Assembly (NCBI RefSeq): GCF_040834005.1
Contig: NZ_CP162129.1
Coordinates: forward strand, 3,186,001 to 3,250,000
Direction: 5' to 3'
Origin: Paenibacillus sp. PL2-23
GTDB lineage: Bacteria > Bacillota > Bacilli > Paenibacillales > Paenibacillaceae
Length of the DNA stretch: 64,000 nucleotides
A model generated the notes under the pieces. That model was not told the DNA's origin and searched no databases. It saw only the letters and a list, made by a program, of their open reading frames with translations. The translations under genes were made by a program, and so were the position numbers. Every line of letters begins with the position of its first letter. Positions within the stretch are counted from its first letter, which is position 1. Of this stretch, positions 37,377 through 39,525 are shown piece by piece.

Positions 37377-37405
37377 TTGACAGATAGTAGCCGAGGCCTT
37401 ACTAT
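37377..37405 (+). promoter_or_regulatory. Sigma-A promoter of yifB
   Basis: A perfect -35 (TTGACA, 37377–37382) is followed after exactly 17 bases by TACTAT (37400–37405, four of six). The predicted transcript starts near 37412 and carries an 85-base leader before the yifB start. Confidence 0.75.
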
Positions 37406-37426
37406 AGGATCATCGCAATCCTATAG
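37402..37426. repeat. Perfect inverted repeat over the yifB -10 element
   Basis: CTATAGGAT and ATCCTATAG form a perfect nine-base inverted repeat with a seven-base spacer. It overlaps the -10 hexamer and the predicted transcription start, the usual place for a repressor operator. The regulator is unknown. Confidence 0.6.
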
Positions 37427-37448
37427 CGTATAATTATTTTCAGTGAGG

Positions 37449-37499
37449 AAGCACCTTCTGAATGGACGTTTATTAACCATTCCAGGAGGTGCTTTTTTT
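37449..37499 (+). promoter_or_regulatory. Terminator-like hairpin covering the yifB ribosome site
   Basis: AAGCACCTTCTGAATGG (37449–37465) pairs with CCATTCCAGGAGGTGCTT (37477–37494), with one bulge and one G-U pair, across an 11-base loop. Seven T residues follow directly (37493–37499) and run into the TTG start. The AGGAGG ribosome site (37484–37489) is wholly inside the 3' arm. The element looks like a terminator, an RNA switch, or both. Confidence 0.75.
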
Positions 37500-39060
37500 G
37501 TACAGCTTTACGCATAGCGCAAGCGTGATGGGCGTGGAGGGCCGCAGCATATTCGTCGAGGTCGATATCAGCAGCGGCCTGCCGCAGGTGAATGTGGTCG
37601 GTCTGCCGGACCCCGCCGTGCGGGAGTCGGTGGAGCGGGTGCGCGCCGGCCTCAAGAACAGCGGCTTCACATTCCCGATGGATCGCATTACCGTCAATTT
37701 GGCGCCCGCAGATATGCGGAAGGAGGGCACGGCCTTTGATCTGGCTATCGCCGCAGGCATTCTGACCGCGAGCGGCCAGCTTGACGGAGCATTGCTTGAT
37801 GGCACGCTGCTCATAGGAGAGCTGTCGCTCGACGGCGGCGTGCGCCCCGTAACCGGCGTGCTCGCCATGATGGAACAAGCCCAGAGAATGGGCATGAAGC
37901 GCGTTCTGCTGCCCGTCGGGAACCGCAAGGAGGCGGCCTGGATTTCCGGCATCGACGTGTATGCCATCGCCCACGTTCGGGAGCTGAGGCCCCAATCGGC
38001 TGCCGGCCCTAGTCCTGCCCCCTATTGGTCGCGGTTCGCCACGGATGAGAAGGCAGCGGGAAGCCGCAGCCATGACAATTGTATGCCTAGGGAGCAGCTG
38101 GATTTCGCAGACATTATTGGACAGCATCAGGCCAAGCGAGCCATGCTGATCGCGGCATCGGGCAAACACAATATATTGCTGAGCGGACCGCCCGGCACTG
38201 GCAAAACGATGATGATTCGGCGTCTTCCCGGCATACTGCCGCCGCTAACGGAGACGGAGGCGCTGGAGGTTACAAAAATTTACAGCGTGGCGGGCAAGCT
38301 GCCAGATGGCGCTGGGGGACTTATGCAGCAGCCCCCGTTCCGCGCGCCTCATCACAGCATCTCAACGGGCGGCCTCATCGGAGGCGGGTCCATTCCGAAG
38401 CCGGGCGAAGTGACGCTGGCGCACCGCGGCGTACTTTATTTGGATGAGCTGCCTGAGTTCCCCCGCTCCGTACTGGAGCTGCTGCGGCAGCCAATCGAGG
38501 ACCGCGTCGTAACCATCTCCAGGGCCAGAGCGACCATTCAGTTCCCTGCCTCGCTCATGCTGGCGGCCTCGTTCAACCCGTGTCCCTGCGGATATTATGG
38601 GCATGAGTTTGGAGAAAAGCGCTGCACATGCAGCCCGGCCGTTATTACACGCTATCGCTCCAAGCTGTCGGGGCCGTTGCTGGATCGGCTGGACCTGCAG
38701 CTGGAAGTGCCCCGCCCGATCTCGTTCGAGCGAGAACGAAATGAAGCCAGCGTCACAACAGCGGAGCTGAGAGCGCAAGTGGCCCAAGCGCGCGCCGTTC
38801 AAGCGGAACGCAACCTGATATACGGCGTCACCTGCAACAGCGAGCTGTCGGGCGAGGGTTTAAGACGGGCGGCTGCCCTGAAGCCGGACGCGCGCAAGCT
38901 GATGGACACCGCGTTCCAGCAGCTAGGCATCAGCATGCGCGCGCATGACCGCCTGCTGAAGCTTGGCCGGACGATCGCCGACATTGAAGGAAGCCGCTTA
39001 GTGGAGTGCGAGCATATCGCAGAAGCGATTCAGTACAGGCGATTAGACCTGAAGCTGTGA
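37498..39060 (+). CDS. yifB: YifB/ComM-family Mg-chelatase-like AAA ATPase
   Basis: ComM-type proteins are hexameric helicases that extend branch migration in natural transformation; the role of the Firmicute form is less studied. The 520-residue protein has an N-terminal ChlI domain (IFVEVDISSGLPQVNVVGLPD), Walker A GPPGTGKT at about 230–237, Walker B GVLYLDELPEF, a cysteine cluster (NPCPCGYYG…RCTC) near 360–378, and a C-terminal Mg-chelatase domain. The TTG at 37498 has AGGAGG eight bases upstream and gives MYSFTHSASVMG; the GTG at 37489 overlaps that site. It is divergent from sucC and unusually regulated (see leader hairpin). Confidence 0.95.
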   Translation: MYSFTHSASVMGVEGRSIFVEVDISSGLPQVNVVGLPDPAVRESVERVRAGLKNSGFTFPMDRITVNLAPADMRKEGTAFDLAIAAGILTASGQLDGALLDGTLLIGELSLDGGVRPVTGVLAMMEQAQRMGMKRVLLPVGNRKEAAWISGIDVYAIAHVRELRPQSAAGPSPAPYWSRFATDEKAAGSRSHDNCMPREQLDFADIIGQHQAKRAMLIAASGKHNILLSGPPGTGKTMMIRRLPGILPPLTETEALEVTKIYSVAGKLPDGAGGLMQQPPFRAPHHSISTGGLIGGGSIPKPGEVTLAHRGVLYLDELPEFPRSVLELLRQPIEDRVVTISRARATIQFPASLMLAASFNPCPCGYYGHEFGEKRCTCSPAVITRYRSKLSGPLLDRLDLQLEVPRPISFERERNEASVTTAELRAQVAQARAVQAERNLIYGVTCNSELSGEGLRRAAALKPDARKLMDTAFQQLGISMRAHDRLLKLGRTIADIEGSRLVECEHIAEAIQYRRLDLKL

Positions 39061-39295: not shown

Positions 39296-39508
39296 ATGAT
39301 TGACATTTACGAAAAGGAGCTAATTACAATAAAGCCTGCAATTACATATCGTTTAGGCATTTGCGCAGCCTGCTTAGTCCTGCTTAACTTTACAACTACA
39401 TCATCGCAAAACACGATATTGACCATCGTAGCAGCCTATACCGGAATTACAGCAGTTTTCCATATTGCAAGTAAATTCATCCAATCCAGAAAAAAAGAGA
39501 GGCCGTGA
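39296..39508 (+). CDS. Small two-helix membrane protein
   Basis: I do not recognise this 70-residue protein. It starts MIDIYEKELITIKPAITYRLG and has two hydrophobic helices (about 19–33 and 39–55), ending in a basic tail SRKKERP. There is no good ribosome site in front of the ATG. However, the ATG overlaps the stop of a possible upstream hydrophobic peptide (ATGA), and a clear intrinsic terminator begins at its stop codon, which supports a real gene. The AT-rich codon use differs from the neighbours at yifB. Confidence 0.5.
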   Translation: MIDIYEKELITIKPAITYRLGICAACLVLLNFTTTSSQNTILTIVAAYTGITAVFHIASKFIQSRKKERP

Positions 39509-39525
39509 CTGGCTTCTCTTTTTTG
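39492..39525 (+). terminator. Terminator after small membrane-protein gene
   Basis: AGAGAGGCC pairs with GGCTTCTCT (one G-U pair) around a six-base loop, followed by six T residues. The stop codon of the upstream gene lies in the loop. Confidence 0.75.

Follow-up and report, generated by a model that had tools for sequence, protein, structure and literature searches.

A leader RNA with two mutually exclusive hairpins precedes yifB/comM and other genes across the Paenibacillus order

Results

A structured leader in front of yifB

We examined the leader of yifB/comM in the window, that is, the whole 64,000-nucleotide stretch of Paenibacillus sp. PL2-23 DNA analysed here, whose 5.48-Mb genome is assembly G000 in our set. 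The gene is divergent from a sucC-like neighbour (sucC named by eye), and the nearest named YifB is that of P. soyae (83% identical). A terminator-like hairpin of 15 pairs lies 3' of yifB, at 39491-39524. For the leader we computed exclusive helices, covariation, the order of folding in silico and the genes downstream. A sequence-only reading of this DNA had described a consensus promoter, a perfect 9-base inverted repeat over its -10, a hairpin with AGGAGG in the 3' arm and seven T residues running into the TTG start. All four are present (Table 1); promoter-like sites there number 4, compared with 2.5 expected by chance.

The hairpin with AGGAGG, here called P2, has an MFE of -27.3 kcal/mol and 21 pairs, G-U pairs with the U-run included, and none of 200 dinucleotide shuffles was as stable (z -6.4). 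A simple terminator scan omitted it, since its loop of 11 exceeds the limit of 8 set in that scan. It had been suggested that this hairpin can stop transcription or block ribosome binding, and judged by its sequence P2 has the form of both: a stable hairpin is followed directly by a U-run, as in an intrinsic terminator, and the Shine-Dalgarno sequence lies in the 3' arm. The same reading saw no obvious anti-terminator helix, but we found that a competing hairpin, P1, exists just upstream.

Table 1. Features of the yifB/comM leader and gene, in window positions
Feature	Position	Strand	Basis or detail
Sigma-A type promoter TTGACA-N17-TACTAT	37377..37405	+	10/12 consensus match
Perfect 9-base inverted repeat CTATAGGAT/ATCCTATAG over the -10	37402-37410/37418-37426	.	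Sequence reading
P1, putative anti-terminator/anti-sequestor hairpin	37439..37462	+	Nascent-RNA MFE, covariation; 37439-37443 with 37458-37462, 37445-37448 with 37454-37457, loop AAGCA 37449-37453
Invariant nonamer GGAAGCACC, apex of P1 and base of P2	37447..37455	+	147/149 distinct yifB leaders
P2, putative terminator/Shine-Dalgarno-sequestering hairpin	37445..37498	+	37445-37465 with 37477-37481 and 37483-37498
Shine-Dalgarno AGGAGG, within P2 3' arm	37484..37489	+	Sequence and predicted fold
U-run after P2, seven T, into the start codon	37493..37499	+	Sequence
yifB/comM, controlled gene, TTG start 37498-37500	37498..39060	+	Pfam Mg_chelatase, ChlI, Mg_chelatase_C

Conservation of the leader before yifB

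Within the family, yifB turned up in 147 of 148 genomes and 18 of 19 genera. The upstream survey took in 130 of these 147 genomes, PL2-23 included (17 were left out), together with 28 named loci, giving 158 stretches from two sets that partly overlap (L004 and L033, for instance, are identical). All 158 carry the hairpin element. In 156 of them GGAAG(C/A)AC(C/T) was matched, with a GGTG-type arm between it and the start; the two unmatched stretches (L151 and L153) were too short, and their longer versions (L431 and L432) both carry the element. The 156 matching stretches represent 149 distinct sequences, 147 of them with GGAAGCACC. The exceptions are L102, where the 3' arm reads GGTTT and so compensates for GGAAGAACC, and L115, with GGAAGCACT in the place of the nonamer. 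With up to 4 arms mis-parsed, the longest T run was at least 5 in 130 of the 156 leaders and at most 3 in 16, so that the effect in the latter may be translational only.

Upstream of the element, a promoter-like match of at least 9/12 was present in 56 of 61 cluster representatives, compared with 17% of letter-shuffled sequences, and the distance from the -10 to the nonamer had a median of 30 nt (41 nt in the window). Our scripts sometimes took the start codon to be a TTG within TTGTTATG, which leaves the helices unaffected. The inverted repeat, earlier called operator-like, fared differently from the promoter. It is missing in L001 and L004, the two nearest relatives read (YifB 83% and 81% identical), both of which retain the promoter. 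A DNA operator of a repressor, for which the repeat should be kept at orthologue promoters, was rejected on this ground, and because of the same absence the repeat is probably not part of the RNA element.

Two side observations concern the gene itself. In L201 (G142:C1:4191500-4193100) an extra copy of the leader lies upstream of yifB, and behind it comes a short, disrupted fragment similar to the first part of yifB; the arrangement looks like a duplication that has decayed. Broken yifB matches occur in five genomes, with internal stop codons in G032, G052, G074 and G090 and as two pieces some 4 kb apart in G145; because of them yifB seems dispensable in some lineages, unless these are assembly errors.

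P1 and P2 are exclusive and covary

P1 consists of a variable outer stem and an apex in which GG and CC close an AAGCA loop. P2 uses the 3' strand of P1 as its own 5' strand, so the two hairpins are mutually exclusive. With the apex imposed, P1 in the yifB leaders has 4 to 15 pairs (median 10), the inner four pairs being all that L159 retains. We performed a strand-swap test, in which strands were exchanged between genomes (60 cluster representatives, 20,000 permutations). Matched P1 strands averaged -7.71 kcal/mol and swapped ones -5.72, a cost of 2.0 kcal/mol (z -7.1), and for P2 the values were -16.92 and -12.73, a cost of 4.2 kcal/mol (z -11.7 and -11.8); no permutation in 20,000 did as well for either. 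An unrelated strand pair (the 5' flank against the pre-SD strand) gave z 0.2. Reversed-flank controls gave z -1.4 and -1.2 for P1, whereas those for P2 were not flat (-4.1 and -4.0), indicating that part of the P2 signal is composition. Compensatory changes in the stem had been proposed as a check on the original reading, and the P2 pairing is indeed conserved across relatives, with changes of this kind.

The pairings were also scored on an alignment of 61 yifB leader cluster representatives (A1). P2 was paired in 94.4% of 879 cells and P1, in a fixed register, in 73.3% of 610 cells, while slid versions reached at most 69% and 61%, respectively. P1 had 81 cells changed on both sides and P2 had 78, against shuffled means of 35 and 26, and none of 500 shuffles reached either count. 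Some measures were weaker: the number of doubly changed pairs was reached by 35 of 500 shuffles for P1 and by 81 of 500 for P2, and the P1 covariation score of 0.304 was hardly above the 0.294 obtained when the structure was shifted by one column. In A1, column 26 changes along with each of its two partners (G-C in 25 and A-U in 23 for P1; C-G in 24 and U-A in 23 for P2), which is what a three-strand switch demands. On the covariation of its helices beyond shuffles and slid controls, the element is a conserved, structured cis-regulatory RNA, although some measures, as just given, are weaker.

The GG at nonamer positions 1 and 2 faces U in P2 (60 and 55 of 61), a weak pairing, and forms G-C pairs in P1. 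The G at position 5 is kept in all 61 representatives, including the 38 in which it faces U in P2. Because this G is invariant in spite of its partner, and because the initial GG weakens P2 but strengthens P1, the loop would seem to be read by a factor. Loop variants in which P2 is kept by compensation do occur (AAGAA in L102 and L258, AGGCA at four HRDC loci), so loop identity is not absolute.

One factor that might be considered is CsrA, which recognizes ANGGA with the GGA in a hairpin loop and could control the leader by binding the GGA of the nonamer and that of the Shine-Dalgarno sequence. GGA is present at both sites in the window, and csrA in 147 of 148 genomes. However, the A two bases before GGA is not conserved (A in at least 34 and G in 25 of 61), the GG is paired with CC in P1 instead of lying in the loop, and the constancy of the remaining nonamer would stay unexplained. 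We rejected a CsrA-binding leader as very improbable.

P1 is predicted to fold first and to give way to P2

In silico, for 145 of 147 elements the P2 state was no more than 0.5 kcal/mol above the minimum. This agrees with the earlier proposal that the gene is off by default, P2 being the predicted default. P1 was more stable than P2 in none of the 147 elements computed, so that without help it may be a short-lived intermediate only. When the RNA was allowed to grow, the P1 apex entered the MFE fold before P2 in 53 of 60 cases; in the window the nascent MFE fold held P1 for 3' ends at 37460-37487 and P2 from 37488 or 37489, depending on the assumed start.

A kinetic attenuator that needs no factor, in which P1 slows P2 closure and polymerase speed sets a fixed or growth-dependent read-through, would account for this order, with P1 first and then displaced by P2, as well as for the greater stability of P2 throughout and for our having found no regulator. 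It has no need of a sequence-specific apex, yet the nonamer keeps its position-5 G where A would pair equally well with the U of P2. We regard this explanation as unlikely, and prefer an attenuator in which a factor holds P1.

The same element precedes other genes

A covariance-model search had also been recommended. Our model, built from the 61 yifB leaders, matched 235 of 246 genomes of the order at E 0.01, and 41 of 46 genera, and it revealed other genes behind the element that the sequence-only reading had missed. In all 20 regions examined closely the match precedes yifB or the gene of a ~335-aa HRDC-domain protein (PF00570 in the PL2-23 copy, other copies recognized by eye). This HRDC gene is present in 111 of 116 genomes, and the element stands before it in all 30 best-matching loci: a regular expression recovered 25, reading by eye added L398, whose arm is longer, and L406-L408 and L410 have GGAGGCACC with a matching GGTGCC or GGTGTC 3' arm, again compensated. 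In the 25 regular-expression loci the pattern ends 45-93 nt before the gene, in terminator form and off the ribosome site. A direct pattern, RGGAAGCACC-N10-40-GGTGCTTTTT, with CTTTTT or a near form required after the hairpin, matched 108 of 118 genomes, and the reversed pattern none of the 118. In the PL2-23 genome a loose pattern matched four places (before yifB, the HRDC gene, the Tad operon and a secreted-protein gene), and its reversal none.

Targets beyond yifB and HRDC were found through the element search and hand-picked among the matches listed, so no per-genome frequency is implied. They include comEC (by Pfam in L414 and L425; by eye in L258, a GGAAGAACC variant, L283 and L332), the element in L414 lying between a comEB-like deaminase gene and comEC, and recX (L338 and L429). 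A Tad-type pilus operon lies downstream of the PL2-23 element at G000:C1:4136226-4136274; the Tad operon genes (L411) are those of a ParA-like ATPase, T2SSE, two T2SSF, TadE, a prepilin peptidase and FHA. At L325 and L428 the target is a kinase gene, then a SAF-domain gene and a sub-threshold T2SSE match, and at L331 a protein with a weak T4SS coupling-protein match. Stalk-domain proteins (Cu_amine_oxidN1) were recognized by Pfam in L337 and L415 and S-layer proteins by Pfam in L339 and L416, with further members of both kinds identified by eye; an ABC-permease-like ORF follows the element in L417 (by eye). A frequent target is a secreted, coiled-coil-like family of the L293 type, which has no Pfam match and is represented in PL2-23 by a 272-aa protein (element at G000:C1, 1008411-1008461). 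About ten elements had no recognizable target, for example L254, L260, L270, L284, L322, L326, L328, L424 and L426. Several copies were seen on single contigs, namely G099:C35 (L243-L247, L322) and G316:C13 and C15 (L248-L252), where they precede surface-protein-like genes (by eye) and genes of unknown function; these contigs are perhaps a large plasmid or integrated element that acquired the same control.

P1 was retained at these other genes. In the swap test 54 representatives gave z -8.9 (0 of 10,000; reversed controls -0.3 and 0.1), and the 35 representatives outside HRDC gave z -8.6; in the 19 HRDC leaders alone the P1 signal was not significant (z -1.2). P1 is weak in places, with -3.5 kcal/mol before recX (L338) and -1.0 in L254. 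An ORF of at least 150 aa starts within 330 nt of 70 of 78 distinct non-yifB elements, and the element outside yifB would mostly be a terminator before a gene.

The layout at these genes bears on two further explanations. If P2 were an RNA thermometer or constitutive brake that merely hides the yifB ribosome site and melts with temperature, its complete enclosure of the Shine-Dalgarno sequence would follow, but at most other targets the hairpin stands at some distance from the start of the gene (median 58 nt to the longest ORF) and has a U-run, a 27 kcal/mol stem is unlikely to melt as a switch, and P1 would be superfluous. We consider this extremely improbable. The window promoter and terminator bound an RNA of ~90 nt, and this short promoter-proximal transcript could itself be the product, as a small RNA behind which yifB lies only by coincidence; against this, the same layout stands before many unrelated genes, the sequence varies beyond the nonamer and the 3' arm at yifB reaches the start codon in parsed leaders, which leaves the small RNA very little credence.

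The element is distinct from plain terminators and looks confined to the order

Plain AAGCACC terminators with a prefix other than GG were found in 93 of 116 genomes, the prefix being mostly AA among the matches listed (the pattern excludes G there). These AAGCACC...GGTGCTTTTT intrinsic terminators have the same stem base and U-run as the element; however, they lack the GG prefix, and 20 representatives showed no P1 (P1-like z 0.5), so that the element forms a class of its own, set apart by P1 and the GG prefix. A class-wide search matched 25 of 250 genomes, 22 of the same family and 3 others, and the 20 genomes listed of the 225 non-matching ones all lie outside the order. The three matches outside the family had no convincing target, L375 having the motif and no long ORF, and L373 and L374 no regular-expression match. 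Because of this outcome the element looks confined to the order, as far as these genomes go.

The loose pattern also matched 24 viral contigs, nearly all of them plain terminators by eye. One catalogued viral contig, L304 (IMGVR_UViG_3300031468_000009), carries a yifB gene with its leader and is probably bacterial DNA or a prophage edge.

Two other candidates were rejected. For a small antisense RNA with a long perfect complement, we found no reverse-strand match to a 13-base pattern in the PL2-23 genome, in a search that covered long complements and in which the reversed control pattern gave one match. The sole other forward match, L030, falls where an IclR-like gene begins on the opposite strand; it has no P2 and is a chance match. 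For a leader peptide, no consistent start codon behind AAGGA was seen by eye among the leaders listed.

Discussion

The experiments in silico described above establish a real, order-wide leader RNA, and its reading as a two-state attenuator is well supported by comparison of the sequences. We put at about 0.7 the probability that the leader works as a short attenuator RNA with two states, P1 preventing P2 and probably being held by a factor. Transcription would start a few tens of bases upstream, to go by the promoter match. In the nascent RNA P1, with its almost invariant GG-AAGCA-CC apex, would form first, and the downstream strand, as it emerges, would pair with the 3' half and loop of P1 to give P2. 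Together with the U-run, P2 would act in the cell as an intrinsic terminator, and at yifB it would also bury the Shine-Dalgarno sequence and block translation; P2 would thus be the OFF state and P1 the ON state. Since the nonamer forms the foot of the P2 stem, beside the U-run, anything that holds P1 would block closure of P2. Holding the tip of P1 would keep the P2 base open, let the polymerase pass and, at yifB, free the ribosome site. The holder would most likely be an RNA-binding protein that reads the apex, and less likely a ligand or a small RNA.

This arrangement is kin to known kinds of attenuator. In the RAT of the BglG/SacY/LicT systems a small leader hairpin overlaps the 5' arm of the terminator, and holding the hairpin prevents termination; the element is alike in that its putative anti-terminator hairpin overlaps the terminator 5' arm. 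It differs in that the RAT consensus, ~30 nt with internal loops, was not seen, the nonamer GGAAGCACC and its apex being dissimilar, in that its named targets are not sugar operons and in that the ribosome site at yifB would be hidden too. Riboswitches of the preQ1 type have expression platforms that pair the Shine-Dalgarno sequence, and the element shares with such platforms mutually exclusive helices and a ribosome site buried in the OFF state; unlike them, it shows no separate aptamer, has a conserved part of 9 nt and has no Rfam 15 match. In ANTAR/NasR-type antitermination a protein-held hairpin overlaps the terminator, as proposed here, but two hairpins with hexaloops are used there, whereas the element has one pentaloop hairpin near the likely transcription start.

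We found the element described nowhere in Rfam or in the literature searched, in keeping with the earlier remark that no switch in front of yifB had been described. Rfam 15 gave no match at the gathering threshold in the window and 17 further loci, and when the leader was searched at relaxed stringency, the four matches obtained scored far below threshold. Among the papers listed in a literature search, mostly without subscription papers, none described a yifB, comEC or Paenibacillus competence leader or gave an account of competence control in the order. The terms yifB, comEC and chelatase are absent from the accessible part of PMC5670726, and a term search of the accessible part of PMC2965389 gave no match.

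ComEC is the DNA channel and YifB/ComM acts in branch migration. We hypothesize that a trans-acting factor works on the leader and that the genes behind it form a DNA-uptake programme; from the targets we infer a theme that takes in the cell surface as well as DNA uptake and recombination. ComM is reported to be the canonical branch-migration helicase in Gram-negatives and RadA to have a role in transformation in Firmicutes (PMC11612176), and Liberibacters are reported to need Tad pili for DNA uptake (PMC8513845). It is conceivable, although doubtful, that an antiterminator reading GG-AAGCA-CC turns on ComEC, the Tad pilus, YifB/ComM, RecX, HRDC and surface proteins as a dedicated RNA-based DNA-uptake regulon of the Paenibacillus order; transcription attenuation, in place of promoter activation, would then gate natural transformation.

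The design is one of three strands, in which a single strand pairs either with the anti-terminator arm or with a combined terminator/ribosome-site arm. That unlinked genes share a leader with a near-invariant apex of nine bases, and that this leader has no Rfam match, hints at an RNA-binding regulator yet to be discovered; the leader also offers a testable handle on how DNA-uptake and recombination genes may be switched in a large bacterial order.
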